Positions 1 to 43,169 of a stretch of 46,089 nucleotides of DNA are shown here, piece after piece. Location: positions 1 to 46,089 of the IMG/VR virus record IMGVR_UViG_3300023184_002113; one strand, written 5' to 3'. The translations under genes and the position numbers were made by a program. The notes under the pieces are model-generated. The model saw only the letters and a list, made by a program, of their open reading frames with translations. It was not told the origin of the DNA and searched no databases. The DNA is from a virus. Within the stretch, counting starts at the first letter, position 1. Every line of letters begins with the position of its first letter.

Positions 1-337
1 TCACAGCCGTACCACTGTTACCAGTTACATAGTAGGTTAAGTCAATACCATACGCACGACCTACCGCTGTCGTAGCTGTTACACCTAAGCTCAATGTATT
101 CGTTGAACCTATTTGTCTAATATCAACAGCATTGTTATCACCGTAGATCTTAGCTGGAGTTGTATTACTTGACCCAACACCTTGTATACCACGCACCACG
201 TTACCTGCACCTGTCTGCGTGACGTCAATCGTACTATTATCACCACTTTGATCGATGTAGATGCTGTTGTCTGCTGCAAACGCTGTTATCGCAAACAAAG
301 CTAGCATCACTGCCCATAGTTTAATGTAATTGTACAT
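1..337 (-). CDS. Curlin-like secreted amyloid protein (partial, C-terminus beyond window)
   Basis: The first 112 residues are visible and the frame is open at the window edge. A Sec signal peptide of about 20 residues ends near AFAA, followed by two curlin-type repeats in which N-x(5)-Q-x-G-x(2)-N spacing recurs (QSGDNS, QTGAGN, then RQIGSTN). CsgA/CsgB proteins consist of such repeats and polymerise on the cell surface after export through CsgG. The ATG at 337 is preceded by AAGGAG at a good distance and overlaps the end of csgG by 17 nt, so the three genes are translationally coupled. Whether it is a nucleator (CsgB-like) or the main subunit (CsgA-like) cannot be told from the fragment. Confidence 0.75.
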   Translation of the reverse strand, partial: MYNYIKLWAVMLALFAITAFAADNSIYIDQSGDNSTIDVTQTGAGNVVRGIQGVGSSNTTPAKIYGDNNAVDIRQIGSTNTLSLGVTATTAVGRAYGIDLTYYVTGNSGTAV

Positions 338-1337
338 TTACTTGCTCCTTGGCCCGGGGGCCTTTAACTGAAGGTTGTTCTATATCAGAGACCTTCTCTT
401 TCTTCTTTACTGCTTTTGTAGTTGTCACCTTAGAAGTTTCAACTACGGTTGGGGTATCACCGCTGACAGGTTGCTGTGCTGGAGTAGTTTTGATCTCTAC
501 TGGGGTAGGAGCCGAGGGAGTGTCTATCCTAGGTCCAGCACCAACAATGTCATCAGTTTTGAAGTCCCATACACCTTTGAGCTGACCTTCTTTGATCAGT
601 TCAACGACAGCCGCTTCAACTGCTGCCTTGACCGCTTGCGTTCCGGGCTCATTTATAGTGAGTCCTGCTTCTAGTTCAAACGCCTGCGTACCATCTTTGA
701 TAAATTTCAGCATGGCCAAACTATCACTGGTGCTGTAAATTGTTTTCTGCACGTTTACACTGGCTAATACTTTACCTGTGTTAACGCTGATTAATCTCAA
801 ACTTACTGTTACTATATCTTCACTGTATTGTGTCTGTGGACCAATACCTAGTATACGTGCGGCAAAGCCACCGCTCTTAGTACTACTATCATATCCTGTG
901 ATACCACCCTCTACGATCACCCCAGCAAACATCATTGGGCTTAGTGGTTTAGCGTTGGCACCATCATAGGCTTCACGCATCTGACGTATAAGTTGACGTT
1001 CTTTAGTTAGGCTGTCAATGCCCACACGTTCAACTACCACAAACCATTGACCTCGACCTACATCGCTCAAGGCTTTGATAAGGAATGCTTCTGCACCCTG
1101 TGTAACCGCTGTTGACAAGTTAGCGATACTGGCACTAGGACGTCGTTGTCCTGTTTTATCTAAGAAACTGTAGACCGCTACTACCACTGGGCGACCTGCC
1201 GCAGGTGGTGGAATAACGTCAAACTCTTTCTGCATCAAGTTTTTAACTTTTGTAGGCTTTTCAGGACCCGTGACCATACTTGTGGTAGCACAGCCTGTCA
1301 AGCATAACAGTAAAAATAATGTTAATAACTTTTTCAT
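321..1337 (-). CDS. csgG: CsgG-type outer-membrane curli secretion lipoprotein
   Basis: CsgG forms the nonameric outer-membrane pore that exports curlin subunits. This 338-residue protein has a lipoprotein signal with lipobox LTGC (Cys16) and the full CsgG core: the RPVVVAVYSFLDKTGQ strand, the GQWFVVVERVGI segment, VEGGITGYDS, and the SVNVQKTIYS strand-turn. The ATG at 1337 is preferred over one 42 nt upstream because it has an AGAAGG ribosome site, lies 7 nt after the csgF stop, and begins a proper lipoprotein signal. The family is usually about 277 residues; here about 70 extra residues rich in Pro, Thr and Lys follow the core. Lies between csgF and the curlin-like gene. Confidence 0.93.
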   Translation of the reverse strand: MKKLLTLFLLLCLTGCATTSMVTGPEKPTKVKNLMQKEFDVIPPPAAGRPVVVAVYSFLDKTGQRRPSASIANLSTAVTQGAEAFLIKALSDVGRGQWFVVVERVGIDSLTKERQLIRQMREAYDGANAKPLSPMMFAGVIVEGGITGYDSSTKSGGFAARILGIGPQTQYSEDIVTVSLRLISVNTGKVLASVNVQKTIYSTSDSLAMLKFIKDGTQAFELEAGLTINEPGTQAVKAAVEAAVVELIKEGQLKGVWDFKTDDIVGAGPRIDTPSAPTPVEIKTTPAQQPVSGDTPTVVETSKVTTTKAVKKKEKVSDIEQPSVKGPRAKEQVNVQLH

Positions 1338-1344
1338 AGCCTTC

Positions 1345-1794
1345 TTATTGGAATACAAATTGTCCCAATGGTACTTCAATTGTTGTAGTTGATCCTGTTG
1401 GATCTACCACTGTTAAGGTAATGCTATCTAATCCGTTCTTTTGCCAGCTGATAACACTGCCTTCAAAATTAATAGTGCCGTGATCACTACCACCTGTAGC
1501 AAACATAGCAGTTGCTACGTTTTGGCTTATCTGAGCATAGATTCTTGACTCTAAATTGTTCAAAAACTTGGCCAAATTGGTGTTTTTCTTATCGTTTGCT
1601 TCCTTATCTAAGGCCGCTTGTAGGTCTTTTTTGATTTGTTCTTTACGTGTGTGCTCTTGGTTCTCAAGAGTTAAGACGTGAGATGAGTATCCGTTGCCAT
1701 TAAAGCTAGGACTCTTGAATGAATAGTCAGGGAGAGGTTGTGCTACAGCCAGACCTGATATAGATAGAAATAGGAATGAAATACATAGTTTCAT
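1345..1794 (-). CDS. csgF: CsgF-type curli assembly factor
   Basis: CsgF is exported through CsgG, plugs into the pore with its N-terminus and couples nucleation to secretion. The 149-residue product has a cleavable signal peptide ending near LAVA, then the CsgF N-terminal motif F-x-S-P-x-F-x-G-N (SFKSPSFNGNGY), which in the E. coli protein contacts CsgG. The C-terminal half carries the LTVVDPTGSTTTIEVPL strand pair typical of the family. An AAGGAG site precedes the start. It is the first gene of the csgF-csgG-curlin order. No csgE or csgD homologue is seen here. Length and motif agree well with the family (E. coli CsgF is about 138 residues). Confidence 0.9.
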   Translation of the reverse strand: MKLCISFLFLSISGLAVAQPLPDYSFKSPSFNGNGYSSHVLTLENQEHTRKEQIKKDLQAALDKEANDKKNTNLAKFLNNLESRIYAQISQNVATAMFATGGSDHGTINFEGSVISWQKNGLDSITLTVVDPTGSTTTIEVPLGQFVFQ

Positions 1795-1861: not shown

Positions 1862-2188
1862 TTAGTCTGGATTTACTGCTTCTGCAGCTTCTATTCTTTC
1901 TAAAATAATAGAATAAAAACTATCTACTTCCCCACCAAATTTGCCTGTTAAATGCTCAATACATTGGCGGCAGTAGTCATATTGCTGTGTTTGATATCCG
2001 TGTAGGAAATCATTGTGTAGTTTAATCCAATTTTCTAACTGTGGTAGATCACCGATTGATATCTTGTCTGCGGCTATTAGGCAAAATACTTCAATACTGT
2101 GTCCGTCTTTCTCTACAGTTTCTAGGTCCAATACTGTATATTTTTCACGCAATTTTTCAGCGTTTTCTCTACCAAATATAATATCCAT
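1862..2188 (-). CDS. Conserved-looking phage protein of unknown function (108 aa)
   Basis: I do not recognise a domain. The 108-residue product starts MDIIFGRENAEKL, is acidic and mostly helical, and has one C-x-x-C-like spot (CRQC) in the C-terminal half. The start at 2188 is chosen because the ATG overlaps the TAA of the upstream exonuclease gene (TAATG) and has GGAG 9 nt upstream. A longer frame upstream would run into the exonuclease gene. Translational coupling with the exonuclease suggests co-expression, not necessarily a shared function. Confidence 0.6.
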   Translation of the reverse strand: MDIIFGRENAEKLREKYTVLDLETVEKDGHSIEVFCLIAADKISIGDLPQLENWIKLHNDFLHGYQTQQYDYCRQCIEHLTGKFGGEVDSFYSIILERIEAAEAVNPD

Positions 2189-2721: not shown

Positions 2722-3179
2722 TATCGTTTACTTTCCGCTTCTGCTACACGTTTGCGAAGACTGCTGGAACTAAAACTGTGATCACGACTGTTAAAGATTA
2801 ATTTAATGTTGCGTTTGTTACAGATATCTTTACCTGTGAAATCTTTATCTTCGTATTCTATACCTAAGATACGGACATCGATAGGTAAGGTTAATAATAT
2901 GTCTTCAAGATCTTTTTCTGTATTGTAGACCACGATCTCATCTACATAGCGTGTTGCCGCTAGTTGTATTTGACGTTCTACTATACTTTGTATTGGTGCG
3001 TTCTTTTCAGGACGATCCCAGCTGGCATTATTTTGTAATCCAGCGATAAGATAATCACAGTGATTTTTAGCTTCACTTAGCATAGCAACATGACCAGCAT
3101 GCAGCATATCAAACTGGCTGGCTGTAAATCCTATGCGTAGGCCCTGTGCTTTTAATTCCTGGACTTTATTAAATATCAT
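2721..3179 (-). CDS. Cytidylyltransferase-like nucleotidyltransferase
   Basis: The N-terminus GFTASQFDMLHAGHVAML carries the H-x-G-H active-site motif of the TagD/RfaE-C/CoaD nucleotidyltransferase superfamily. Near the end SSSSLRKRV resembles the ISTT/ISSS-x-hydrophobic-R signature. The 152-residue length fits a stand-alone glycerol-3-phosphate or glycero-manno-heptose cytidylyltransferase domain. Such enzymes transfer CMP or AMP to a sugar or glycerol phosphate. The substrate cannot be read from the sequence; change of cell-surface sugar or a nucleotide/cofactor substrate are both possible. It overlaps the clpS end by 4 nt, so it is in the clpS transcript. Confidence 0.78.
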   Translation of the reverse strand: MIFNKVQELKAQGLRIGFTASQFDMLHAGHVAMLSEAKNHCDYLIAGLQNNASWDRPEKNAPIQSIVERQIQLAATRYVDEIVVYNTEKDLEDILLTLPIDVRILGIEYEDKDFTGKDICNKRNIKLIFNSRDHSFSSSSLRKRVAEAESKR

Positions 3180-3508
3180 TCTACTGGTTCTAGTTTAACC
3201 TGTAATGGAAATCCATTGTTACGGGCCAGTTGTGTTACTTCAACACCTTTTTGTTCTGCCATTTCATAAGGAAGTATCGCTGCTGTGCCGCTGCCTTCTT
3301 CATGAATTTTCATAGTAACAGCTTGTGCTTCTTCTGGACTATGATTGAATATTTCAATAAGAGTTTGGACGACAAATTCCATGGTAGTAACGCTGTCATT
3401 GATATAGATCACGCGATACAAGGGAGGTTCTTTCAAGTTGAGATTTGGAGTAGGTTTTACTCTAGTGACCGCTTTGGTGCCCATAAATTCCTTTTCGAAT
3501 GTCGTCAT
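3176..3508 (-). CDS. clpS: ClpS-type N-end rule adaptor
   Basis: ClpS delivers N-degron substrates to ClpAP and blocks other ClpA substrates. The 110-residue protein has the canonical Y-x-V-x-x-x-N-D core (N37 D38), the TTMEFVV helix, H69 in KIHEEG, and the C-terminal hydrophobic LARNNGFPLQVKLE strand. N, D and H are the N-degron pocket residues. No Shine-Dalgarno is obvious in the 40-nt leader, which instead holds a perfect 8-bp hairpin. A sigma70-type promoter sits inside the end of the hsp20 gene upstream. A phage ClpS could redirect host Clp proteolysis. Confidence 0.92.
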   Translation of the reverse strand: MTTFEKEFMGTKAVTRVKPTPNLNLKEPPLYRVIYINDSVTTMEFVVQTLIEIFNHSPEEAQAVTMKIHEEGSGTAAILPYEMAEQKGVEVTQLARNNGFPLQVKLEPVE

Positions 3509-3554: not shown

Positions 3555-3583
3555 ATTATACTACTTCTGAAAGGTGATTGCAA
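3555..3583 (-). promoter_or_regulatory. Sigma70-type promoter for clpS operon
   Basis: Minus strand TTGCAA, 17-bp spacer, TATAAT. The -10 is consensus and the -35 matches 5 of 6. It overlaps the hsp20 stop region and predicts a start near 3548, 40 nt before clpS. Confidence 0.65.
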
Positions 3584-4004
3584 TCTTTTTTGGCTTAGCT
3601 GACTCTGGAACGATATGTTCTAAAGTAACAGTCAAGATACCATTTTTAACTTGGGCACCTTTGACTTCTACGTTGTCTGCTAGAGCAAATGTGCGTTCAA
3701 AGTCACGGCCTGCAATACCTTGATGTAGATACTGTTGTTCCGCTTTGTTTTCCTTGTTGACTGCACCCGTAACGACTAGTTCGTTGTTGACTATCTCAAC
3801 ATCCAACTCACTTTCATCAAAGCCCGCGACCGCTACTTCGATCTTCCAGATAGTTTCTGACTCTTTGATGATGTTGTAAGGTGGATAGTTACTGGCATTT
3901 AATGTGCCAGCTGTTCGGCTGAGCTCATCAAACATGCGGTCAAATCCTACTGCAAATCTTTGGATACTTGGAATATCCAAACTGTTAATATATACTTGTT
4001 TCAT
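3561..4004 (-). CDS. Hsp20 / IbpA-type small heat-shock protein
   Basis: An alpha-crystallin-domain chaperone (147 residues) that would hold unfolded proteins for DnaK. Visible are the domain start (IKESETIWKIEVAVAGFDES), the beta-strand pair ELVVTGAV, the F-x-R-x-F strand (GRDFERTFALADNVEV) and the hallmark G-x-L-T-V-T-L near the end, followed by a short tail ending PKKIAITFQK that may supply the I-x-I anchor. An AAGGAG ribosome site precedes the start. It lies 42 bp after dnaK with no promoter between, so it is probably co-transcribed with dnaK. Confidence 0.9.
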   Translation of the reverse strand: MKQVYINSLDIPSIQRFAVGFDRMFDELSRTAGTLNASNYPPYNIIKESETIWKIEVAVAGFDESELDVEIVNNELVVTGAVNKENKAEQQYLHQGIAGRDFERTFALADNVEVKGAQVKNGILTVTLEHIVPESAKPKKIAITFQK

Positions 4005-4046: not shown

Positions 4047-5963
4047 TTATTCGGCATCCTTTTTAACTTCAGTGAACTCAGCATCTACTACATCGCTGGG
4101 TTTTTCTGAATTCTGTTCAGCACCTGGTTGCACTTCTGCTTTGGCAGCTTCAGCAGCCTGATATGCTTTGAATAGTGGTTCTGCGGCTTTAGTCAATGCT
4201 TCTACTGCATCGGTGATAGCAGGAATGTCATCACCTTCGATAGCAGTTTCGACTGCCTTGACTGCTGTCTCGATAGCTGTCTTTTCATCTGCTGAGATCT
4301 TATCACCCAGATCTTTTAGTGTCTTGTTAACTTGATAAACTTGACTGTCAGCATTATTACGACTATCTACCAAGGCACGTTGTTTCTTATCAGCTTCGGC
4401 GTTGGCTTCAGCTTCTTCAACCATCTTAGCGATTTCGTCTTCACTCAGACCACTATTGGCTTTGATAGTGACTTTGTTTTCTTTACCAGTGTTTTTGTCC
4501 TTAGCTGAGACTTTTAAGATACCGTTGGCATCGATGTCAAGTGTGATCTCAATAGCTGGGATACCACGTGGTGCTGGAGCAATACCTTCTAGATTAAACT
4601 CACCTAGTTTCTTGTTGTCTTTAACAAACTCACGTTCTCCCTGTGCGATATTGACTGTTACCGCAGGTTGATTGTCCTCTGCTGTTGAGAATGTTTGACT
4701 AACTTTAGTAGGGATAGTCGTGTTTTTCTTGATAAGTTTAGTAAACACACCACCCATGGTTTCGATACCTAGACTCAATGGAGTAACGTCTAATAGTAAT
4801 ACGTCAGTCTTATCACCAGCAAGTACCGCACCTTGGATGGCCGCGCCAACTGCCACTGCTTCATCTGGGTTGACATCTTTACGTGGTGCTTTGCCAAATA
4901 GTTGTTCAACTGCTTCTTGCACCTTAGGCATACGTGTCTGACCACCAACTAGGATAACATCACTGATATCGTCTGGTGATACACCTGCATCTTTTAATGC
5001 TACCTTGCATGGCTCAATACTGCGTGTGATCAAGTCTTCAACCAGTGCTTCGAACTTAGCACGACTGATAGTCACGTTCAAGTGTTTAGGACCACTGGCA
5101 TCTGCTGTGATGTAAGGTAAGTTTACCGTAGTTTGATTACTGCTGGATAATTCAATTTTAGCTTTTTCAGCGGATTCTTTTAATCGTTGTAGACTCAGTT
5201 GATCTTTCTTAAGGTCAACACCTGACTCTTTCTTGAACTCATCGATGATGTAGTCCATCAAGCGTTGGTCAAAGTCTTCACCACCAAGGAATGTATCACC
5301 ATTGGTTGACAATACTTCAAATTGGAACTCACCATCTAGGTTGGCAATCTCGATAATACTCACGTCAAACGTGCCACCACCTAGGTCGTATACAGCGATC
5401 TTTTTATCTTTCTTATCAGCTTTGTCCATGCCAAATGCCAGTGCGGCCGCTGTTGGCTCATTGATGATACGCAATACTTCTAAGCCTGCGATCTTACCTG
5501 CATCTTTGGTCGCTTGACGTTGTGCATCGTTGAAGTAAGCTGGAACTGTGATAACTGCCTGTGAGACTTCGTAGCCGAGATAGTCTTCAGCAGTCTTTTT
5601 CATCTTGATCAATACTTCTGCTGAGATCTGTGGTGGTGCTAGTTCTCGATCATCAATCTTGACCCAAGCATCACCGTTTTTGTTTTTAACGATCTCAAAT
5701 GGCATTAGATCGATGTCTTTCTGCACTTCTTTTTCGTCAAACTTACGACCAATTAGTCGTTTAGCCGCATAGACTGTTTTCTTTGGATTAGTTACTGCTT
5801 GACGTTTGGCTGGTGCACCAACTAGGATCTCATCGCCATAGGCAACGATACTAGGTGTAGTTCTAGCACCTTCATTGTTTTCAATTACTTTGGGTTTGTT
5901 GTTTTCTAGGATAGCCACGCATGAGTTTGTGGTTCCTAAGTCGATACCGATGATCTTAGACAT
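4047..5963 (-). CDS. dnaK: Full-length DnaK (Hsp70) chaperone
   Basis: Complete 638-residue Hsp70. The ATPase domain has phosphate-1 [10 protein letters not shown] at residue 5, phosphate-2 [12 protein letters not shown] near 190-200 and the adenosine motif [12 protein letters not shown]; the interdomain linker is [12 protein letters not shown]; the substrate domain and helical lid are intact and the C-terminus keeps an acidic tail ([14 protein letters not shown]). It is host-sized and appears functional. Segments such as [11 protein letters not shown] and KKTAEDYLG look betaproteobacterial, pointing to capture from such a host. No dnaJ or grpE is in the window, so host co-chaperones would be needed. 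The leader is about 80 nt with AAGGAG before the ATG. Confidence 0.98.
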
Positions 5964-33014: not shown

Positions 33015-33566
33015 TTATGCCTGTTTATTCATCGATGCGTTTATTTTTGCTCTCAATGCATCACGTTGTTGTTTATTCATCTGTTTAATGGCAGCATCAA
33101 TCTGTTGTTTTGATGCGTTCGAATCTTTAGCAGACTGTTTTAATTTCTTTTGATTCTGTTGATCCCAGGCTTTATCTAAGGTTTTAGCATAAGTCGGGGT
33201 AGCTAGCGTGTTTACTACGTTACCTTTGGTATCAGTGGCTAAAATCCACTTGCCACCTTTTTTAACGTATGTTCCTGCTGTAGTAGGAAATTCTGTGCCT
33301 TCTGGAGCAGCATCATATGGCTCTTCTGTGGCTTTTCTAAAACCCATGTTGCCTGCAGAACCAGCGGCTACCGCTGATGCAAGATCATTAAGTGGAGTTT
33401 GTACTGTTGTTGAATGTGGGCCTAGACCAAATGCTGTACCCGGGCGGATAGATCCGCGAGCTGATTGATCTTCAGCGTCTTGCTGTGATTTTAATTGTTG
33501 TTTTTGCTGCGGAGTTAATTTAGACAGATCTAAATCAGCTTCTACTAGCACCTCATTAATCTTCAT
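33015..33566 (-). CDS. Putative virion protein with capsid-targeting-like N-terminus (183 aa)
   Basis: Start set at 33566 (MKINEVLVEADLDLSKL), with AGGAAA upstream and 11-nt overlap with the previous gene. The 183-residue product has helical ends (TPQQKQQLKSQQ; KQQIDAAIKQMNKQQRDALR) and a beta-like centre with GTYVKKGGKWILATD. M-K-I-N-E is identical to the start of the following 734-residue protein. Function unknown, likely virion-internal. Confidence 0.6.
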   Translation of the reverse strand: MKINEVLVEADLDLSKLTPQQKQQLKSQQDAEDQSARGSIRPGTAFGLGPHSTTVQTPLNDLASAVAAGSAGNMGFRKATEEPYDAAPEGTEFPTTAGTYVKKGGKWILATDTKGNVVNTLATPTYAKTLDKAWDQQNQKKLKQSAKDSNASKQQIDAAIKQMNKQQRDALRAKINASMNKQA

Positions 33567-33804
33567 TGTTGATTTTCCTGATGCCTCGTGAGAATTTAGC
33601 AGGATCTTGACCTTTGATCGCATTCAATAAACGATTTTCGAGTTTAGTAGCAGTCTCAACATCATAGTTTTCGTGGATATACTTGATGAGGTTGATAGCA
33701 CCGTTGATGATGTTATTAGCACGTGATTCAAGGAGGTTTTCCTTGTCTTTGTGGGTAAGTAGTTCATCTAACTCAGTGAGTAGACTACGTGTGCGTTTCT
33801 GCAA
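33556..33804 (-). CDS. Small helical phage protein (82 aa, TTG start)
   Basis: A TTG at 33804 with GGAG 8 nt upstream is the likely start; longer readings run back through the radical SAM gene and a late promoter. The product is helical (RTRSLLTELDELLTHKDKE; NIINGAINLIKYIHENY) and ends KFSRGIRKINNED. Follows a GATAAATA late promoter with a 15-nt leader. Unknown role, probably structural or assembly. Confidence 0.5.
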   Translation of the reverse strand: MQKRTRSLLTELDELLTHKDKENLLESRANNIINGAINLIKYIHENYDVETATKLENRLLNAIKGQDPAKFSRGIRKINNED

Positions 33805-34834
33805 GATCTTGCTCCAGTTTAGAGTATTTATCAAAACCGCAATTATCATTACAGCAGATTAACCGACCATTTTCAAATGTATCTTTATTCCAGCTGTCTT
33901 CTACTTTATTAAACCAGCCTATACATTCTTCTAAACTATAGTCTAATGAATTATTCTTGTCAATCATTGGTGCTAGTTGTGCATTTACCGCTTCGTGATA
34001 TTCTCCCTTACCATAAGTTTTGGGATTAAATCCAGTGAAACAACAAGGATATACATCTCCTATTGAACTAATATAAATTGATCGTGCTTGTTTTGTATAG
34101 CAATTTATATTAGAATGTTGAGTCAAATATGGAGCAACATCTTCTAGTAATACCATGTCAGTTTTCTTTTTGTGGAATAGTATTTCAAAATTCTTTTCTC
34201 CTGTGTAGTCACCAAGCACATGAATTAACTTACCATGTTTATCATATACCGGTCCACTATCTCTTCCATGATCTACTAATTCAAACTTTGTAAATCCTAT
34301 TTTTTCAGATAATCGTTTACACTCGTCAATTTGATGTTTATTATGATCAAACCTTATCATTTTCCATACAGCTGACCCACCAGCCGATATAAAAATTTTA
34401 GCATTTTTTATAATAGTCTTCCAATTAGTATTTTGCCTATACAAATGATGTGTATCTTCTAATCCATCTAAACAAAATAAAACATTTGCTTTTGCATGAG
34501 CCAATCGTTGCCAAAACGATTTGTCTCTGGCACTACCGTTAGTGCTGATATCTATTATTAAATCTTTATTATGTGATCTAAAATATTCAACGATATCGGG
34601 AGTTTCTGGATTCATAACAGCATCACCAAAATTACCATTGATGTATATACGTGTGAGTTGTTTTAAAAATGTAGGAATAAAAATATGTTTGGCATCATCT
34701 AATGTTAGGTTAGCCTCAACATATCCATCATTATAAGGATACCCACGGAAATTTCTTGGGCATAACGGACATCGAGCATTACATAGAGATGAGATTTCTA
34801 GATGAACTTCTCGTATCTGATCATAGGATATCAT
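33785..34834 (-). CDS. Second radical SAM / SPASM-like protein (349 aa)
   Basis: C18-x(3)-C22-x(2)-C25 (SLCNARCPLCPRN) forms the radical SAM cluster site. Downstream YINGNFGDAVMNP takes the place of the GGEP motif, and STNGS follows. C-terminal cysteines (NCYTKQ, YPCCF, ICCNDNCG) fit auxiliary clusters of a SPASM domain. Starts with ATGA overlap on the gp41 helicase gene. Differs from the first radical SAM protein in the SAM-binding segment, so different substrates are likely. Confidence 0.83.
   Translation of the reverse strand: MISYDQIREVHLEISSLCNARCPLCPRNFRGYPYNDGYVEANLTLDDAKHIFIPTFLKQLTRIYINGNFGDAVMNPETPDIVEYFRSHNKDLIIDISTNGSARDKSFWQRLAHAKANVLFCLDGLEDTHHLYRQNTNWKTIIKNAKIFISAGGSAVWKMIRFDHNKHQIDECKRLSEKIGFTKFELVDHGRDSGPVYDKHGKLIHVLGDYTGEKNFEILFHKKKTDMVLLEDVAPYLTQHSNINCYTKQARSIYISSIGDVYPCCFTGFNPKTYGKGEYHEAVNAQLAPMIDKNNSLDYSLEECIGWFNKVEDSWNKDTFENGRLICCNDNCGFDKYSKLEQDLAETHT
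33825..33832 (-). promoter_or_regulatory. T4-type late promoter (GATAAATA) inside the radical SAM gene end
   Basis: Minus strand GATAAATACT, in the 3' end of the radical SAM gene at 33785-34834. Predicted +1 near 33819, 15 nt before the TTG-start gene; it would serve the run of virion genes down to about 29.6 kb. Confidence 0.55.
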
Positions 34835-36222
34835 TCTGCAGAGTTCTTAAGACCAGCTAGCATACTCTTAAGTTTGCTACTATCCACACCAGCTTGGATT
34901 TTAGGTTCTTCGCTAGGTGCTACTGTTGATCCTGTTTTAATCTGATTTAGGATATTAGTAGCACCAACACCACGCAATCCGCTTTCTTGTGCTTCTTCTC
35001 CTGGATCTGTAATTCTTAGTGTCTCTAAGTCATACTCTAGATCTACTTTCATACCTACGCCACTCGAACTACGTGTTTTCATAAGTTGTAGTTGGTAACG
35101 ACCACGCTCACGCATGGCTCTCGATGTAAAGATACCAAACACGTTATCAGCTGTGTTGATCTTACTCAACCCACCTGCGATATGACTGTGATCAAATTCA
35201 ATTTCTTCTACTGCTCCACGATTAAGCTGTGATGCTGTGATCATCAATATGTTAAGTTCTTTAGATAAGTTACGTAATTCTTCTGATACGTATTTGTCTT
35301 TGACAAACAGGTCATTTGGGCTGACTTTAGCACTCACTGGCATGACTAAATCTAAATAGTCTACCATGATAAAGTCTAACTTCATACCTGTTTGTATCTG
35401 TAGTTCTTTTAAGTAGCTACGTATCTGATTTACGTTACTCTGTGCTGGCATGTATTTGATCTGTAGCACACCAGATTTCTTACCTACCATCTTGACTTTC
35501 ATTTCGATAGTGTCCAGGTCTTTGAACATTTCTTTAGTCGATACGTTGGCTACCATACTGTCCATACGCATAGCACACAGGCCTTCACTCAACTCTAAAC
35601 TTAGATATACACCATTGAGCCCTTGCGTGACCCAATTGATAGCTATGTTCTGCATGAATAAACTTTTACCACTACCTGATCCGCCTGCAAAGATGTTTAG
35701 TTCTCCACGATTCATACCACCAAATAATCGTTTATCTAACGTAGGCCAGCCAGTGCTGACTTGTCCGTTATTAGATTTAATCGCTAATAATCTAGCACGT
35801 GGATCTAAGAAATAGTCTGTGCCCATGTCTTTGGTTAATGATATTTGAACTGCGTCTTTGATAAGTTTTTCAACAGGATCATAGTCACCTTTTTCTAACA
35901 TGTCTGCGGCTTTAAGGATAGCACGTTCAAGCTCATTACGTTTAGTAAAGCCTTCAAACTCTGCTAGGAACCAACTGTAGTGATCTTCTGTTAGGTCTGG
36001 TACGTGTTTACAGTCTACACCTGTGACTGCCTTGACCTGCTCATGTGTGGGCATGGCTTTATGATCGTCAGTGTGAGTTTTGATAAACTTAGCCACTTCA
36101 CGTAGGCTACGATCAAAGTTTTCTGCATTATAGATGTTCTGCACACGCACATAACTCTGTGCGTCTTCTAGCATCATTTCTAAAAATAGTTTCTGTAGTT
36201 CTGGGGAATATTCTTTGCTCAT
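34831..36222 (-). CDS. 41: Replicative DnaB-type helicase (T4 gp41-like)
   Basis: A 463-residue hexameric helicase. An N-terminal helical domain is followed by a RecA-like core with Walker A GGSGSGKS (180-187), Walker B-type FIMVDYLDLV, the ASQLNRG motif (H3) and the arginine-finger region KTRSSSGVG. It unwinds DNA at the fork with the primase encoded just upstream. A promoter inside the primase end gives +1 at or beside the ATG; no Shine-Dalgarno is seen. Confidence 0.95.
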   Translation of the reverse strand: MSKEYSPELQKLFLEMMLEDAQSYVRVQNIYNAENFDRSLREVAKFIKTHTDDHKAMPTHEQVKAVTGVDCKHVPDLTEDHYSWFLAEFEGFTKRNELERAILKAADMLEKGDYDPVEKLIKDAVQISLTKDMGTDYFLDPRARLLAIKSNNGQVSTGWPTLDKRLFGGMNRGELNIFAGGSGSGKSLFMQNIAINWVTQGLNGVYLSLELSEGLCAMRMDSMVANVSTKEMFKDLDTIEMKVKMVGKKSGVLQIKYMPAQSNVNQIRSYLKELQIQTGMKLDFIMVDYLDLVMPVSAKVSPNDLFVKDKYVSEELRNLSKELNILMITASQLNRGAVEEIEFDHSHIAGGLSKINTADNVFGIFTSRAMRERGRYQLQLMKTRSSSGVGMKVDLEYDLETLRITDPGEEAQESGLRGVGATNILNQIKTGSTVAPSEEPKIQAGVDSSKLKSMLAGLKNSAE

Positions 36223-36226
36223 ATAT

Positions 36227-37258
36227 TTAATTATACAGTTTCTTTTTCATTAGTTCAATCTTGAGTTTACTCGTCTGTTTACTATCTAAGATAGTTTTCA
36301 GCACAAACAACTTGCCATATTTTACCACGGCTTCATTTACGTCTTTACAGGTTTCTAACCATACAGGAAAGCTAACTGACCAACCATATTCAATCGCGTT
36401 ATTGATCATCCGAGCGCCAGCCCGGTCCTTGTCGGCTACTACGATTACTTCACGGCCCAAGGATTCAATAATGTCTGCTTGTGTTTCATTACATTCATTA
36501 TTTAACACTGCTACACCATCTATGCTCATAGCATCAAATGGTCCTTCACAGACTATGACAAACTTGCTGTCTGGCAGTTGATTGTTGGTATTGAATACAA
36601 AATTTGGTTCATAACTACTATAGTATTTTGGTTTAACTCCATCAGTGACAGCACGGGCAGTATAACCAATGGTCCGGCCTTGCCAGATGAACGGAATGAT
36701 CACACGCTGATGTAGGCTGTGTTCTGTCGAGTCTGTCCAAAGAAAGTCATACCTATCATAGTCCATCTTGCGCAGATTGGTATAGTTGACTGCTGAATTT
36801 AATAGTCCTGGAACATTCTTAAAATCATCTAGTAGATGATGTGTCATCATAGCACGGAAGCTGACTGCGGATTCTGGTAAGTCACGAGCTTTGAAATCAA
36901 TTTTTTCTTCTTCGGCTTCTGCTTTTACCTCTTCTGGATTAACCAATTCACGGACACGGATAGCTTCGATAACCAGGCGTTTGATATCAGTGTCATCAGC
37001 ACCCAACCATTTTAGTAGTTTACGGAATTTGAATGTTAGGTGACGACCTGGTTGATAGCTGGCTTTGAAGTTACAGTTGAAACAATGGAAAGACACGCTA
37101 CCATCTGGATTGGCTGTTAGGCCACCACGTCCACGGGTATCTGCTGACTCACCATTATGGACGCAACAAGGTGCGTTGAAACTGGTCCAACCACTTGGTG
37201 TGGTTTTCTTTTTTGCAGGTAAAATACCTTTTATAAAGTCACTTACGATATTCAGCAT
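36227..37258 (-). CDS. 61: DNA primase (T4 gp61-like)
   Basis: 343-residue primase. N-terminal zinc-binding C31/C32-x-H34 with C59-F-N-C62 (CHC2/ribbon type), then TOPRIM elements CEGPFDA (E238) and ADKDRAG (D276, D278), the metal-binding acids of RNA primer synthesis. It lies 4 nt from the helicase gene, as partners in the primosome. Promoter TTGATC/TATAAT puts +1 at or beside its ATG. Confidence 0.94.
   Translation of the reverse strand: MLNIVSDFIKGILPAKKKTTPSGWTSFNAPCCVHNGESADTRGRGGLTANPDGSVSFHCFNCNFKASYQPGRHLTFKFRKLLKWLGADDTDIKRLVIEAIRVRELVNPEEVKAEAEEEKIDFKARDLPESAVSFRAMMTHHLLDDFKNVPGLLNSAVNYTNLRKMDYDRYDFLWTDSTEHSLHQRVIIPFIWQGRTIGYTARAVTDGVKPKYYSSYEPNFVFNTNNQLPDSKFVIVCEGPFDAMSIDGVAVLNNECNETQADIIESLGREVIVVADKDRAGARMINNAIEYGWSVSFPVWLETCKDVNEAVVKYGKLFVLKTILDSKQTSKLKIELMKKKLYN
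36230..36258 (-). promoter_or_regulatory. Sigma70-type promoter placing +1 at the helicase start
   Basis: Minus strand TTGAAC, 17-bp spacer, TATAAT. ATG begins 8 nt after the -10, giving an essentially leaderless transcript. Confidence 0.6.
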
Positions 37259-37265
37259 ATACTAT

Positions 37266-37294
37266 ATTATACACTAAACTTTTGGTTAGATCAA
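37266..37294 (-). promoter_or_regulatory. Sigma70-type promoter placing +1 at the primase start
   Basis: Minus strand TTGATC, 17-bp spacer, TATAAT, followed by ATAGTATATG. ATG is 8 nt after the -10; no ribosome site. Confidence 0.65.
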
Positions 37295-37319
37295 CCTTTA
37301 AGTGTTACATCTTGGATCA

Positions 37320-39197
37320 TCATGATATCTTGACGTAACCGTATGACACAGTAACATTACCGCCGCTGGTGTTGTTGATGCCAAAGTCAAATCTATTGGT
37401 AGTTGCACTTGGAGCAACATTGCTACGAACTATGGTGTTTCCAGTGCCTGTAAACTGATTGGGTATGCTGGTAAAGTCGATGGGCGTTCCACCACCGTTG
37501 TAGACCCAAGCATACTGAGCACCCACAACAGGCACATTGCTGTTGGTAATGGTAGCCGTGGCATTATATGCGATAATTCCATTGGGTATATTTCCAATCA
37601 CCGACAACTGATATGTGCCTTGATCCGGAATAGTGAAACTGTAGGTGTTGGTACCAGTGGTCACTGTCCAGCTACCAGTTGTTTTAGTAGCAACACCAGT
37701 TAAGAGTGTGCCATTACCTAAGAAGTAAGTAGCAGTGACGTTACCGGCCGCTGAGATATTGGCAATATTGCCTGACTGTAGATACGTTGCTACACGAGCA
37801 TTGCTGTAGAATGTTTGGCTGTCAACGTAGCCTTTCATCGCAGTATTAGCTGTGGTTATTCCGGCAGTAACGATAGTATTACCTCTATCAATATAACCAA
37901 TGATACCTACATTTGCCGCTGTAATGGCTAAATTGGCAGCTCCTACTTGAGCTGATTGTATTGAGTTGGCTAGGTCAACATAACCTTTCATACCTACGTT
38001 GGCTGCTGTGATGGCTAAGTTAGCCGCTCCTATCTGAGCTGATTGAATTGTATTGGCTTGATCGATGTAACCAATTATACCTACGTTGGCCGCACTTATC
38101 TGAGCTGACTGGATTGAGTTAGCTAGGTCAACATAACCTTTGATGCCAGTGTTAGCTGTGGTTACGTTACTTGCATAAGCATAGTTAACCAAGTTAGCTG
38201 TATTACTTGTTAGATAACTGTTAGTTGTTAAGTAAGCCGCAACATTGACGTTACTATAAGCACTGGCTTGTAAGTTGCCAATCAGTGCCTGTTGTTGATA
38301 GCTGTTGGCAGTTAATACAGTGATGATAGGTGCTGTGTTGCTGAATGCTGTCTGTTGGACTGTGGTATCTGGGAATGTCAATCTACCATTTTGGCCAAAG
38401 GTCCAATTATAATTAGTGGCGCCACCTGCGGCATTACTAATGAAAGTAAATCCGCCCTGCGTCCCAACGGTCATGTTGGTATCAATGGTCTGTATATAAT
38501 TACTATACGGTAACGACATGATACCATTTTGGCTAAACATCCAATTGTTTCCGGTATTAGCAGTATAATTAGTGCCTATGTATATAGTGCCACCATTGTC
38601 TACCTGCACGTATTGTTTGCCATCTGAGCTGGCGACTCCGCCAGCAATATTGGATGTTACGAACCAACTCTGACCACCGCCAACTTCTCCGTCAGGTCCT
38701 GGGTAACCATTGACGATGCTGGCACCTGTTGGGAATGTCACGTTGCCAACACTGTTTAGGCTCAGTGTTTGTCCAGCATTCCATAGGTTAGCTACGTTGC
38801 CACCACCCGTGCCAGTGACTGCGTTACCACCAACTGTTAGATTACCATTGGCGATCGTTAGTGCTGTACCACCAATATAGATAGTATTACTGCTGACGTA
38901 TAGATGTTTCCATTGGCTGGTGATACTGCCTAGACTGTAAACACTATTAGCACTAGGGCTGATATTACCATCAAATGCTGTTAGGTATACTTTGACATTG
39001 GCGTTACCGTATGATGTCCCACCACTGCCTTGGACTGTGTTGCCACCGGGTGTGACGCCATCGTGTATGCGGATAGTCTTTGCTTCAGTGTCGACTGTCA
39101 GCTCACCAGGCAAACCAGTGTAGCGATTGTTCTGTATGGTATTACCACGTAGAGTTAATACTTTGGTAACTTGAACGTTAGAGTAGGTAATAGCCAT
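37320..39197 (-). CDS. Large tail-fibre-like protein (625 aa)
   Basis: N-terminus GLPGELTVDTEAKTIRIHDG carries the fibre/tropism-determinant signature shared with two other window proteins. The centre has repeated GYVDLANSIQSAQ(I/V)xAANxxI units (about 20-24 residues, at least four), which look like trimeric coiled-coil or beta-helix shaft repeats. The C-terminal 130 residues (GSWTVTTGTNTYSFTIPDQG) form a predicted beta-sandwich, likely the receptor tip. Overlaps the next gene by 1 nt. Confidence 0.75.
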   Translation of the reverse strand: MAITYSNVQVTKVLTLRGNTIQNNRYTGLPGELTVDTEAKTIRIHDGVTPGGNTVQGSGGTSYGNANVKVYLTAFDGNISPSANSVYSLGSITSQWKHLYVSSNTIYIGGTALTIANGNLTVGGNAVTGTGGGNVANLWNAGQTLSLNSVGNVTFPTGASIVNGYPGPDGEVGGGQSWFVTSNIAGGVASSDGKQYVQVDNGGTIYIGTNYTANTGNNWMFSQNGIMSLPYSNYIQTIDTNMTVGTQGGFTFISNAAGGATNYNWTFGQNGRLTFPDTTVQQTAFSNTAPIITVLTANSYQQQALIGNLQASAYSNVNVAAYLTTNSYLTSNTANLVNYAYASNVTTANTGIKGYVDLANSIQSAQISAANVGIIGYIDQANTIQSAQIGAANLAITAANVGMKGYVDLANSIQSAQVGAANLAITAANVGIIGYIDRGNTIVTAGITTANTAMKGYVDSQTFYSNARVATYLQSGNIANISAAGNVTATYFLGNGTLLTGVATKTTGSWTVTTGTNTYSFTIPDQGTYQLSVIGNIPNGIIAYNATATITNSNVPVVGAQYAWVYNGGGTPIDFTSIPNQFTGTGNTIVRSNVAPSATTNRFDFGINNTSGGNVTVSYGYVKIS

Positions 39198-39712
39198 TAA
39201 GGTAGTAGTCCTGGGTCAATGATAGTTTCACCTAGATTTTGGACTGCTACTGTGCTTGAGTAGTAAGCCGGTAACACTTCTAGATCTAAAGGCACACTAT
39301 AGTTGTCGTCAATATACAAAGGAGTTTCTGTGCTGTCTGATGTTTTGATCAATCTTGTAGTAAGTTTGTAAAATCTCTGATCTAGGCTGTTGACCACGTT
39401 GGCTGTAAACAACACTGTGGTGGTTCCTGCAACCAGATTACTATAAGAACTGCTGGCATTAGCAGTGAAGCTGTAAGCAGTCAATTGATTTGCAGGGTCT
39501 TGTATGTCGATACGCACACTGTAGCCTACCAGATTTGCGGGTTTTTGATCCTGATTCTTAACTATTAACTGCATAGGATTATCTATGCCTTGATAAACTT
39601 TTATTGGGCGTGCATACACGGGTCGGTTCCTCGGTTTTAATGTGGGATCAGAGAAGTCCAAAACTTCTATGTTGACTTTTTGAAGATATAAATAACTTGT
39701 GATTGTAGGCAC
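39197..39712 (-). CDS. Beta-rich fibre/baseplate-associated protein (171 aa)
   Basis: A 171-residue product (GTG start) with Ig- or BppU-like pattern: DFSDPTLKPRNRPVYARP, PMQLIVKNQDQKPANLVGY and VRIDIQDP strands resemble N-terminal domains of baseplate upper proteins that adapt fibres. Late promoter GATAAATA lies 25 nt upstream. Translationally coupled to the 625-residue fibre gene. Likely its connector; family not proven. Confidence 0.6.
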   Translation of the reverse strand: MPTITSYLYLQKVNIEVLDFSDPTLKPRNRPVYARPIKVYQGIDNPMQLIVKNQDQKPANLVGYSVRIDIQDPANQLTAYSFTANASSSYSNLVAGTTTVLFTANVVNSLDQRFYKLTTRLIKTSDSTETPLYIDDNYSVPLDLEVLPAYYSSTVAVQNLGETIIDPGLLP

Positions 39713-39736
39713 TTTTGGTCTCGATCTCTTATAAGG

Positions 39737-39744
39737 TATTTATC
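39737..39744 (-). promoter_or_regulatory. T4-type late promoter (GATAAATA) for the fibre pair
   Basis: Minus strand GATAAATACC. Predicted +1 near 39731, 19-nt leader to the GTG at 39712. Lies just before the divergent plus gene, whose ATG is at 39753. A plus-strand TATAAATA at 39687-39694 also exists but falls in the coding sequence of the minus gene. Confidence 0.55.
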
Positions 39745-39752
39745 GCATCTCA

Positions 39753-40127
39753 ATGGAAGACAGTTACAAGACACTCTTAGACCAATACCCGTTTATCAGC
39801 TATATAACCTATGGCGGCAACGATTATATTGGCATCATACAGAATTCAGATGAAATCATCACTACGATCTATGACTATGCGGCTCTACGCACTCTAGCAC
39901 AGAAGACAGCATACTTAGAACTAGCGGATCAATGGTGGTGGGAAAGTAATAGGCTAGTGCCTATCAACGTGTTCCTAAAGCAGGATTGGGTGGAATTCCG
40001 AGTTTGTTTGAAAACATTCAACAGCAAGGACGTGGAAATCAAACATGGTCCTTACATAAGTCTTAAAGAAATATCACAGAAACGCAGTAAACGTCGCAGT
40101 ATCACACTGATTCGCAAAGTAGGTTAA
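39753..40127 (+). CDS. T4-like protein of unknown function (124 aa), sole rightward gene in this part
   Basis: The 124-residue product starts MEDSYKTLLDQYPFISYITYGGNDYIGIIQN and has WWWESNRLVPINVFLKQDW, with a basic end (KRSKRRSITLIRKVG). Similar proteins seem common in T4-like aquatic phages; function unknown. No clear ribosome site precedes it. It converges with the gene at 40102-40677, overlapping by 26 nt. Confidence 0.6.
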   Translation: MEDSYKTLLDQYPFISYITYGGNDYIGIIQNSDEIITTIYDYAALRTLAQKTAYLELADQWWWESNRLVPINVFLKQDWVEFRVCLKTFNSKDVEIKHGPYISLKEISQKRSKRRSITLIRKVG

Positions 40128-40677
40128 GATTTACCACTACTAACTGACTGTAACTAATCGCATGAGCTTTTTTGAAGTAATAATCATCATCACTAGGTTT
40201 AGTCCAAACATCCGCAGCAACTTCCTTCCAAGTCTTACCTATTAAGTGCCGCTTTGCGGGTCTAATCACGGCTAGGAACATGGCCAGTCTAGGAATAGTA
40301 TCCACAGGCTCTGGCATTTTTAATAGTGTATCGTAGTGATTGTTGATGTGGATTAACTGCGCACATATTGAACTATCATATAACTTGGTCCAATCTGGTT
40401 CTTGCATGAGTTTGACTAAGTGTTCTTCACTCTTAACCTGTTTATAAACATGGACGTTCAGCAAGTCTAACTTCATATAACCACGATCTTCTGCCGCTTG
40501 ATAATCCAAACTAGCAGATCCTGAGAATGGATCCACAGGTATATCTGTAGCGTATACTCCTGTATTGTGCTTGACCGACTTCCCATCACGTATGATGCTA
40601 GCTGGTGTGACGTTTAACAAGTCTAATACCTGTTGACGATCAGCAAAGTCTATGTCAATGTCTGATTGGAACTTCAC
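40102..40677 (-). CDS. Miniature DNA polymerase III alpha (DnaE)-palm-like protein (191 aa)
   Basis: SDIDIDFADRQQVLDLL (D6-x-D8-x-D10) resembles the PD(F/I)D(V/I)DF catalytic block of DnaE/PolC. KHNTGVYATDIP matches the K-H-A-(A/G)-G-V-V-I region, and GYMKLDLLNVHVY matches the K-F-D-F-L-G-L block that holds the third catalytic Asp. In DnaE these lie across more than 150 residues of a protein over 1000 long; here all three are in the first 80 of 191 residues. A degenerate palm or accessory factor is more likely than a complete polymerase. Confidence 0.6.
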   Translation of the reverse strand: MKFQSDIDIDFADRQQVLDLLNVTPASIIRDGKSVKHNTGVYATDIPVDPFSGSASLDYQAAEDRGYMKLDLLNVHVYKQVKSEEHLVKLMQEPDWTKLYDSSICAQLIHINNHYDTLLKMPEPVDTIPRLAMFLAVIRPAKRHLIGKTWKEVAADVWTKPSDDDYYFKKAHAISYSQLVVVNLNLLCESV

Positions 40678-40886
40678 ATCATCTCCGGTGGTAGGAAGTC
40701 TGGTGGCGGAGTGCCTGGTGCTATACCTATGCTTTCTTGGGGTTGTCTATTAGCAGTATTCTCGATACGATCTAATTGTTCCCTGATCTGCATTAGATCA
40801 TGATTGAGCAAGGTTATGTCTGTGCGCACTAACATTATTTCACTTTTTATTTCATCAAATAACTCTCGTAATTCATCAGCGATCAT
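40674..40886 (-). CDS. Short coiled-coil protein (70 aa)
   Basis: ATG at 40886 has AAGGAGG, a perfect ribosome site. The 70-residue product is a coiled-coil (ELRELFDEIKSEIMLVRTDI; QIREQLDRIEN) with a Pro-rich tail ending PPDFLPPEMM. Overlaps both neighbours by 4 nt. Unknown partner; perhaps an oligomerisation or adaptor protein for the neighbouring replication proteins. Confidence 0.6.
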   Translation of the reverse strand: MIADELRELFDEIKSEIMLVRTDITLLNHDLMQIREQLDRIENTANRQPQESIGIAPGTPPPDFLPPEMM

Positions 40887-41584
40887 AAGTTCGCCTCCTT
40901 CAATATTTGTTTCACCCATTCAGTGTCCGCCACATAGTCTTTAAATTTTCGTTGCCAATATTCTGGATCTATCCAAGGAAGAATAAGACCAATTTGATCA
41001 TCGTTAAGAGCATCAAGAAAGTCAACACCGGAATCACAATTATAAACAATCCAAGGACTAACCCTACCATTAGCGATGTGATGACAAATCCTATTAGGAT
41101 TGCCAAACCTAAAATAATCACTAAATCCATTTTTAAACTCTCCATGTTCGTCTGCATAATCCTGCATCTCCTTTAGGGCACGTTCAAGTGCATCTTGGAC
41201 TGCTTCCTTACGCATATACTGTTTTAGATATTCTAAATAAACTCGCTCATGGCACCAATGATCAAGTTTTTTATTTTCTTTGATCACCCAGTCAATAAAC
41301 ATCTTAGGATTAACAGCACGTATACCTACCATATGTCGACCAAACTTAACGAACGCACGATAATAAGGACTGGCAACAAAGTCTGTGTATGACTTCATCT
41401 TTGCCGAACCCTGTGTTAGTTCATAGAAGCGTAGATATGCTTGAAGTCCAAACTGCACACCAGTTTCTTTTTCTTCCTGCCAGCGACGTTTTTCTTCGCA
41501 AAGATGCGCGGCCAGGGTCGACTCCTTGCGGAACTCTTTACTACAATATCGGCACTTATAGCTCGGCTTTAATTGATTTGTCAT
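40883..41584 (-). CDS. Zinc-finger T4-like protein (233 aa)
   Basis: Start at 41584 (MTNQLKPSYKCRYC). C11-x(2)-C14-x(12)-H27-x-C29 forms a C2H2/C2HC-type finger (KCRYCSKEFRK...AAHLCEE), followed by a large helical region with KFGRHMVGIRAVNP and CHHIANGRVSPWIVYNCDSG. Similar proteins lie among replication genes of aquatic T4-like phages; DNA or RNA binding is likely. The start overlaps the upstream gene by 29 nt. Confidence 0.6.
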   Translation of the reverse strand: MTNQLKPSYKCRYCSKEFRKESTLAAHLCEEKRRWQEEKETGVQFGLQAYLRFYELTQGSAKMKSYTDFVASPYYRAFVKFGRHMVGIRAVNPKMFIDWVIKENKKLDHWCHERVYLEYLKQYMRKEAVQDALERALKEMQDYADEHGEFKNGFSDYFRFGNPNRICHHIANGRVSPWIVYNCDSGVDFLDALNDDQIGLILPWIDPEYWQRKFKDYVADTEWVKQILKEANL

Positions 41585-42020
41585 CAAGTCCGAGGTTTCG
41601 TGCCATGTCTGCAATATCTCGTTTATCATTGATTTTTGCCATTAGGTCTATTTCATCAGATTTCATATTAGGATATAACTTGGCCAAGAACTTTTGGCTT
41701 TTGTTATCTCCCTCTTTCTTTTTAGCATTAAGCCAATAGTGGAACTGTGCGCCCATCTGTGGACTGACTGTGGTGCAGGTAAGCCATTGTAGTTTAGTAT
41801 GTTTACTGCCCAGCTCAAAGAAATGTTTGTTTACACGTTCATTTGTGGCCATTAGATAGTAGGCCTGTAGATCTTTATTGCCGCCGACGTTAGCCCCATA
41901 TTTCAGCATAAGATAAGTTGAAAACTTCTTTCGATCTTCATCTGTAAAATTGTCATAGTAAGCACGATCTTTGCGATCAAATGCCTGCATCTCATATTTG
42001 ATTTCTAAACTTGAACTCAT
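41556..42020 (-). CDS. T4-like protein, possible small clamp-loader-subunit-like (154 aa)
   Basis: 154 residues, helical: FTDEDRKKFSTYLMLKYG, DLQAYYLMATNERVNKHFFEL, QFHYWLNAKKKE, ending in short helices. The pattern of an N-terminal helix bundle with a Y-L-L/W-L-x-x-K segment loosely recalls gp62-type clamp-loader subunits, but I cannot show it. It lies in the replication gene run. Unidentified otherwise. Confidence 0.5.
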   Translation of the reverse strand: MSSSLEIKYEMQAFDRKDRAYYDNFTDEDRKKFSTYLMLKYGANVGGNKDLQAYYLMATNERVNKHFFELGSKHTKLQWLTCTTVSPQMGAQFHYWLNAKKKEGDNKSQKFLAKLYPNMKSDEIDLMAKINDKRDIADMARNLGLDDKSIKAEL

Positions 42021-42256
42021 TTATTCTTTCTTAGGTAATTAATCAATTGATCTACACTCTGTTGCATACGGTTGTATTTAGATTGTAGGTCATCCAAAGC
42101 AGCCTGTTGTTTGGCCACTAGGTCGTGTAGCTTACCAAATGCTTCAGTGGTCTCACGTAGTTTTTTATCTTGGCTAAGCAAGTTTGGGCGTGGTGGAGCA
42201 TTTGGATCCACGGCTCGTTTCTTTTTCTTCTTAAATTGGTCTGCGTTAAATGCCAT
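42017..42256 (-). CDS. Small basic/coiled-coil protein (79 aa)
   Basis: The N-terminal KKKKKRAVDPNAPPRP is basic and Pro-rich, followed by a coiled coil (FGKLHDLVAKQQAALDDLQ...NRMQQSVDQLINYL). Unknown function; possibly a DNA-binding oligomer. Overlaps the neighbouring frames by 4 and 11 nt. Confidence 0.55.
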   Translation of the reverse strand: MAFNADQFKKKKKRAVDPNAPPRPNLLSQDKKLRETTEAFGKLHDLVAKQQAALDDLQSKYNRMQQSVDQLINYLRKNK

Positions 42257-42503
42257 CTGTATAATCCTCGGAGAGCTTATATATAATTATACATTCTTCC
42301 ACCGCATGTTGTAAAGCAGTATTTCGATTTCTGTGCTTGTAGATATCCGTCCACATACGTTGTTCAACCAATTCTTTAGCCTGCCAGCTTTGCCCGATCA
42401 TTATGCGAGATTCTGGTGGTGCGCCAAACTCACGAGCGTAGGTAGTTAATCCACCATCGGGACTTTCGTAGATATAAGTTGTGTCTGGTTTTAGGTTACC
42501 CAT
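42246..42503 (-). CDS. Small phage protein of unknown function (85 aa)
   Basis: 85 residues, MGNLKPDTTYIYESPDGGLTTY... with helices near the end (ALQHAVEECIIIYKLSEDY). No known motif. Starts within the last codons of the small membrane protein gene (8-nt overlap), so translation is coupled. Confidence 0.5.
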   Translation of the reverse strand: MGNLKPDTTYIYESPDGGLTTYAREFGAPPESRIMIGQSWQAKELVEQRMWTDIYKHRNRNTALQHAVEECIIIYKLSEDYTDGI

Positions 42504-42651
42504 TCCAATGCCTCAAAATACCAGCTATGATAAACAGGTTAGTAACGATATATAGTGCTACTATCGCTGTCCTGATCGCCGCAACAACATCTGCTTCACT
42601 ATCCGTGATACCTTCTTTTTGCCCAAGAGCTTTAGCCCAAAGTCTCCACAT
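42496..42651 (-). CDS. Small single-span membrane protein (51 aa)
   Basis: A short gene: ATG at 42651 with AAGGTG 7 nt upstream, TAA at 42498-42496. The 51-residue product has MWRLWAKALGQKEG then a hydrophobic span TAIVALYIVTNLFIIAGI and ends RHWNG. The M-W-R-L-W-A-x-A-L-G start is, as I recall, common in small proteins of aquatic T4-like phages. Unknown function; likely inner membrane. Confidence 0.65.
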   Translation of the reverse strand: MWRLWAKALGQKEGITDSEADVVAAIRTAIVALYIVTNLFIIAGILRHWNG

Positions 42652-42665
42652 CGTTAACACCTTTC

Positions 42666-43166
42666 TTACCATATTTTACCGTAGTCAACCACTTCGCTTT
42701 GTCGACTGATATCTTTAACGAAATAAGCACACAGTGGATGTGCTCCGTCATTGATTGGCACTGCCAACATCTGTCCTGGGCGTAGTTTTGGGAAATACCA
42801 TTTAACATCTTGATAGATGTCTACGATCTCAATTGGATGGAACTCTGGTTTAAAACTGTCTAAAGGATTAAAACAGAACACGCTGAATCCACGATCGTTA
42901 ATTGATGTTAGTGGAATAACTTCTAGGTCACCAAAGTCCGGTTCGCCGATAAGTATCTGCCAATCCACAGGCATCTTAACTAGATTACCACCAATGCGTA
43001 ATACCAACGCCGGGCTGTTAAAACTTTCTAAAAAGATTAATGGTATAAAGAAGTAGTCTGGATTCTTTGGATCACTATTGTCTAATATAGCGAAACGTAG
43101 ATCCTCGACTTCATCTGGAATCTCATTCATCTCATACGCGGTGTTTTCTAGGGTTAGTATATACAT
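42666..43166 (-). CDS. T4-like protein of unknown function (166 aa)
   Basis: A 166-residue protein with YFFIPLIFLESFNSPALVLRIGG and WYFPKLRPGQMLAVPI, no signal peptide and a beta-rich pattern. It lies 3 nt after uvsW. Not identified. Context in the replication/recombination run suggests a DNA metabolism accessory. Confidence 0.5.
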   Translation of the reverse strand: MYILTLENTAYEMNEIPDEVEDLRFAILDNSDPKNPDYFFIPLIFLESFNSPALVLRIGGNLVKMPVDWQILIGEPDFGDLEVIPLTSINDRGFSVFCFNPLDSFKPEFHPIEIVDIYQDVKWYFPKLRPGQMLAVPINDGAHPLCAYFVKDISRQSEVVDYGKIW

Positions 43167-43169
43167 AAA

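Follow-up and report, generated by a model that had tools for sequence, protein, structure and literature searches.

In 2020 csgG and csgF were reported in pelagimyophages (PMC7029224). A 2022 paper described full modules, in which CsgA/B repeats are accompanied by FecR, adenylate cyclase and histidine kinase (PMC9599517); the methylophage Melnitz, which is cultured, carries both curlins and was not seen to clump, dates from the same year (PMC9004378). The GenBank record of HTVC008M has a 'curlin-associated protein, CsgB' adjoining csgG, and that of Melnitz lists two curlin repeat proteins together with FecR and adenylate cyclase; the latter contradicts the Melnitz paper's own statement that fibre genes are lacking. 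A fibre observed for any phage curli operon was not found reported in the literature; sibling capture, superinfection defence and a pore are candidate explanations for the presence of curli genes in lytic phages that infect free-living aquatic bacteria.

The window analysed here, the whole 46,089 bases of a linear IMG/VR virus record, has such a locus at its first positions. It is best read, with a probability of roughly 0.6, as the start of the type VIII secretion operon of a jumbo phage, encoding an extracellular amyloid adhesin, with a leak pore not its main purpose; that the genes are expressed, the products exported, fibres formed and partners bound, and that the phage benefits, are all predictions of that reading. 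The features on which the argument turns are the following.

2..337, minus strand: curlin-repeat protein (curlin 1, the first substrate); PF07012, 33.7 bits, E 3.6e-8, two Curlin_rpt repeats
321..1337, minus strand: csgG, outer-membrane lipoprotein pore; PF03783, 157.7 bits, E 3.3e-46
1345..1794, minus strand: csgF, secreted pore-associated/nucleation factor; PF10614, 55.9 bits, E 6.5e-15, profile positions 12-132 of 132
1862..2188, minus strand: small protein, start at ATG 2188; hit to a viral adenylate cyclase profile (positions 567-657, E 1e-8)
3176..3508, minus strand: ClpS-like adaptor; PF02617, E 1e-26; linked to csg
3561..4004, minus strand: Hsp20 small heat-shock protein; PF00011, E 4e-19; linked to csg
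4047..5963, minus strand: DnaK (Hsp70), full length; PF00012, E 3.5e-256
33556..44627, minus strand: replication/recombination block (helicase through primase and DnaB-like helicase); collinear with PA5oct and Atu_ph07 at ~27-55%, and partly with Phosso

The preliminary description had placed CsgF, CsgG and a curlin-like substrate at positions 1-1794, and all three pass the Pfam gathering scores that served as the criterion. Ribosome sites were indeed found upstream of all three ATGs. With the pore lipoprotein, CsgF and a secreted curlin-repeat subunit all present, a type VIII (curli) secretion cassette bearing its own repeat-containing substrate is confirmed at the level of sequence. The csgG gene starts at ATG 1337, not at TTG 1379, which leaves 7 nt between csgF and csgG; of the overlaps claimed among the three genes, only that of csgG with curlin 1 (17 nt) stands. 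Residues 1-260 of the window CsgG align with E. coli CsgG (PDB 3x2r, E 6e-47), lipobox (LTGC) included, and are followed by a C-terminal tail of ~80 aa that is absent in the E. coli protein and has no Pfam match. Some other phage CsgGs end in a bacterial SH3 domain (loci L022, 8013-9113, and L035, 8031-9176), possibly a peptidoglycan anchor. In the alignment the constriction loop of the window CsgG, RRPSASIANLST, stands against KPYPASNFST of E. coli CsgG; the aromatic residues of the constriction seem to have been lost in the window protein. The window CsgF is 41-43% identical to its counterparts in HTVC008M and Melnitz, and has no sequence match to solved CsgF. Its gene is 98% identical to that of L002 and ~70% to those of L003, L009 and L012, whose csgG stand at 80-87%, and it looks recombined.

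Curlin 1 is cut by the contig end after its first 112 residues, a signal peptide (judged by eye) and ~91 mature residues. It had been proposed that the gene be followed past the window edge, a lack of further repeats counting as refutation; three near-identical relatives (L004, L007, L009) complete it as an intact protein of 262 aa with 6 QxG motifs, so that this refutation fails. When the mature fragment was shuffled, 0.8% of the shuffled sequences had at least 3 QxG motifs. A profile of the family picks up a curlin of known structure (8c50, E 3.6e-12) as well as CsgA of E. coli (8enq, E 0.0023). AlphaFold predicts a regular run of strands (pLDDT 79); a Foldseek comparison of curlin 1 with the PDB gave no significant match, which tells against the adhesin reading and leaves the curlin assignment to rest on sequence. 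Purifying selection acts on csgF (several of its dS values are saturated), on csgG (dN/dS 0.11-0.13) and on curlin 1 (0.15-0.22 for the fragment; 0.03 for the full gene of L007 against L009). The small gene at 1862-2188 resembles the C-terminal tail of viral CHASE2-adenylate cyclase and lies 5' of csgF in many relatives.

Searching IMG/VR with CsgG yielded 47 loci. Curlin 1 follows csgG in all 31 that have sequence past csgG, a FecR-like gene comes next in 26 of the 26 that reach that far, and a second curlin is present in every one of the 22 that extend to it; Pfam often places a CHASE2 adenylate cyclase after curlin 2. The order expected for the operon of the window phage is accordingly that of its relatives, csgF - csgG - curlin 1 - FecR-like - curlin 2 - CHASE2 adenylate cyclase; the window itself stops inside curlin 1, and that FecR, curlin 2 and the cyclase have to be taken from relatives counts against the adhesin reading. 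No CsgC or CsgD counterpart was identified. CsgE, which the preliminary description had also not seen, was absent by PF10627 from the 11 records searched (the phage records being mostly fragments), with a positive E. coli control. The same gene trio, for which a search of phage genomes had been proposed, occurs in the IMG/VR loci, HTVC008M and Melnitz; the operons of PMC9599517 and the HTVC008M and Melnitz annotations precede this work and rule out novelty of the trio and of the substrate gene, the latter having been offered as the new element. A first scan of genome contigs with CsgG alone returned nothing. A CsgG search of the isolated-phage collection matched 7 records, PA5oct, Atu_ph07 and Phosso not among them; a match in OR851715.1, a 1.5-kb record named 'Salmonella phage S.Kent 1-2-1', is possibly a bacterial fragment.

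That the cassette might be bacterial DNA misjoined to a phage contig, a possibility raised at the outset, is refuted: the same flanking gene order recurs in independent assemblies (L002, L003, L009, L012, L040), and the CsgG tree places the window within a phage-only clade of 24 IMG/VR phages (support 100/99). The marine clade of HTVC008M and Melnitz adjoins it, the grouping of both being weak (87/42), and Hyphomonas TMED17 joins both phage clades at 97/99, on a long branch and apart from all other bacteria sampled. The Hyphomonas locus (L056, a 706-kb bacterial contig) runs csgF-csgG-curlin, then FecR and adenylate cyclase, and is the only long bacterial contig here with those two genes after the trio; its placement and gene order agree with the published alphaproteobacterial origin. 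Phage-type curli genes also occur on six short contigs in bacterial MAGs assigned to Pelagibacter, Flavobacteriaceae, Rhodobacteraceae and Pirellulales (L053, L054, L055, L057, L060, L065); their CsgGs branch with phage CsgGs, so these are probably misbinned phage contigs.

The phage itself had been called T4-like, which holds only loosely. By its collinear replication block it is a relative of jumbo phages: the best isolate matches of two window helicases (~49-55%) are PA5oct (287 kb), Atu_ph07 (490 kb) and Phosso (469 kb), and the UvsW-like helicase is 51-56% identical to jumbo-phage homologues against 31% to that of HTVC008M. The block and this helicase rule out a pelagimyophage/Kyanoviridae identity. 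One other window protein resembles cyanophages and, beside helicases of jumbo-phage type, marks the genome as mosaic. Among the relatives with both this helicase (78-85%) and a dnaK-csg locus are two records 202 kb and 329 kb long, as against 46 kb for the window record; the 329-kb record holds helicase, dnaK, csg and gp23 together (the PF07068 search included a positive control). An exact-match extension of the window found only short relatives. A search for the host by way of the window DnaK gave a best match of 72% (274 genomes, class of Onishia, L071) against 64% for Hyphomonas and 63% for Sphingomonas, and no host is assigned. Elsewhere in the window are a 734-aa protein (30808-33012) that matches neither PHROG nor the phage collection, two radical-SAM proteins (25678-26508 and 33785-34834), and a homologue of ribosomal protein S21 (6058-6291) near dnaK, as it is in several relatives; tRNA and Rfam scans of the whole window came back empty. 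A curli operon in giant phages appears to be new, and would make these a third kind of phage to carry one, after pelagimyophages and the HTVC023P podophages.

This identity, a chaperone cassette upstream of the operon and, past the window edge, a second curlin with swappable domains all go beyond the preliminary description. The dnaK, hsp20 and clpS genes lie 1.4-4.2 kb upstream of csgF. When IMG/VR was scanned with DnaK, so that loci were not chosen by curli, and counting was confined to those that extend 3.5 kb or more downstream, csgF/csgG followed dnaK in 32 of 37 phage loci, a count that overstates independence (near-duplicate loci, overlap with the CsgG set, and search patterns drawn from the window lineage). 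In bands of falling DnaK identity from 96 to 73% the linkage is 4/4, 10/10, 9/10 and 9/13. In most of the distant loci an exonuclease homologue stands on the opposite side of dnaK, and dnaK-hsp20-clpS-csg keeps together. A non-exhaustive look through the annotated window genes found neither dnaJ nor grpE, a point against the adhesin reading. Chaperone genes next to a phage curli operon appear, from these gene maps, to be new. They may nevertheless serve general phage proteostasis or counter-defence, adjacent to curli only by inherited gene order, to which we give somewhat less than an even chance. Moraphages, other aquatic jumbo phages, Bacteroidota-linked, have DnaK in a report that does not mention curli (PMC12619734), and csg is absent downstream in 5 of the 37 loci, three dnaK loci (L198, L199, L205) having no csg within 7.5-8 kb downstream; these five loci, and the chance of inherited order, also count against the adhesin reading. 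Set against general proteostasis are the persistence of linkage across 73-96% DnaK identity while the exonuclease homologue changes sides, and the finding that E. coli DnaK binds the signal peptides of CsgA and CsgB, two proteins whose transport depends on it (PMC6123696). The linkage connects an Hsp70 carried by phages with a specific client, one that E. coli work had established before.

Curlin 2, encoded in relatives by the gene after FecR, starts with a signal peptide, continues with an N-terminal region that varies from 0 to ~540 residues in length, and ends in a curlin-repeat half. All 153 pairs of repeat halves can be recognised as related; for the N-terminal regions the figure is 49 pairs of 91, a generous one since the low-complexity filter was off. 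Of 18 distinct curlin-2 proteins, 7 carry a PA14 domain that passes the gathering score, among them that of HTVC008M, which is recorded as 'hypothetical protein'; L026 has an F5/8 type C domain, to which the L009 region is related; the regions of L016, L023, L024/L025 and L040 have no Pfam match; and L027, L036, L043 and Melnitz have no N-terminal domain. Among proteins of known structure, a Lap biofilm adhesin is one of those closest to the PA14 domains. AlphaFold models the C-terminal repeat half of the L009 protein confidently and its N-domain not, and BFVD holds a similar phage 'PA14 domain-containing protein'. Loci L024 and L027 are 90% identical through the end of FecR and again past curlin 2, the curlin-2 gene itself being replaced; L007 and L009 diverge near the curlin-2 start, the L007 contig ending shortly after with its gene incomplete. 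Domain type changes at least 10 times on the 18-row CsgG tree (floor 7 for 8 types). Neither PA14 nor lectins are mentioned in PMC7029224 or PMC9599517, supplements aside, and an exchangeable N-terminal domain on curlin 2 (PA14, F5/8 type C, an unassigned type, or none) appears, by these comparisons, to be new.

Domains that are adhesin-type and exchanged favour adhesion over a pore. On the pore reading, CsgG-CsgF would mainly open the outer membrane, for lysis timing (in the manner of a pinholin or secretin) or nutrient uptake, with the curlins as accessories or plugs. It has been proposed for Melnitz (PMC9004378), with uptake an option in PMC7029224, and is helped by the absence of CsgE, the gate in E. 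coli, which weighs against the adhesin; it nevertheless seems improbable, since every locus of sufficient length has curlin genes after csgG, and these genes are under purifying selection, and since a pore has no need of swapped adhesin-type domains on curlin 2. Among the roles originally offered, surface adhesion or aggregation fits best, whereas a pure leak pore leaves the selected curlins and adhesin-type domains unexplained. A further alternative is that amyloid on the infected cell would mask receptors and exclude competing phages, as suggested in PMC9599517; an arms race would fit secreted surface proteins with variable domains, yet domains of carbohydrate-binding type are not specifically predicted by it and the machinery would be the same as for an adhesin, and we consider it an unlikely main function.

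On the adhesin reading, the infected cell would make curlins with signal peptides, which the phage DnaK, perhaps with Hsp20, would hold export-competent in the cytoplasm. After crossing via Sec they would travel, with no help from CsgE, through the outer-membrane pore of CsgG and CsgF and polymerise at the cell surface. Curlin 1 would form the bulk of the fibre, and curlin 2 would add a carbohydrate-binding or adhesin-like domain that decides to what the infected cell adheres. The phage may benefit because the cell, until it lyses, is kept near new hosts or on particles, or because it is shielded from competing phages. That Melnitz, cultured and with both curlins, showed no clumping (PMC9004378) weighs against this reading; with the exchangeable domains of curlin 2, the idea of adhesion gains a definite object of study. 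A stronger version, doubtful at present, is a jumbo-phage amyloid-adhesin superlocus in which the phage's own Hsp70, small heat-shock protein and ClpS would be dedicated to making and exporting curlins, and a tip protein would carry a lectin-like domain exchanged like the tip of a tail fibre; the virus would then programme the adhesion partners of the host cell that it infects.

The closest described system is the pelagiphage type VIII secretion module (Myoviridae HTVC008M and HTVC023P-type Podoviridae; PMC7029224, PMC9599517), in which the gene order is again csgF-csgG-curlin-FecR-curlin 2-adenylate cyclase, CsgE is likewise missing, and the CsgG is 51% identical to that of the window over 205 aa. 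It belongs to another phage lineage, the window having a PA5oct-like replication block; HTVC008M has no DnaK match, whereas the window has dnaK-hsp20-clpS upstream; and variety in the curlin-2 domain is not discussed in the two pelagiphage papers. The Methylophilales phage Melnitz (PMC9004378) has the same order with both curlins annotated, its curlin 2 being of the form without an N-terminal domain. Alphaproteobacterial curli operons, represented by Hyphomonas TMED17, share csgF-csgG-curlin-FecR-adenylate cyclase and a CsgG that branches with those of phages, and differ in the long branch and in a single detected curlin, before FecR. The jumbo phages PA5oct, Atu_ph07 and Phosso share the collinear helicase-primase-DnaB block, and their records have no CsgG match. 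With E. coli csgBAC/csgDEFG the phage operon has in common homologous CsgG and CsgF, curlin repeats and, on the E. coli side, a known dependence on DnaK; it differs in that no CsgE was found, in the extended tail of CsgG, and in the FecR and adenylate cyclase of its relatives.
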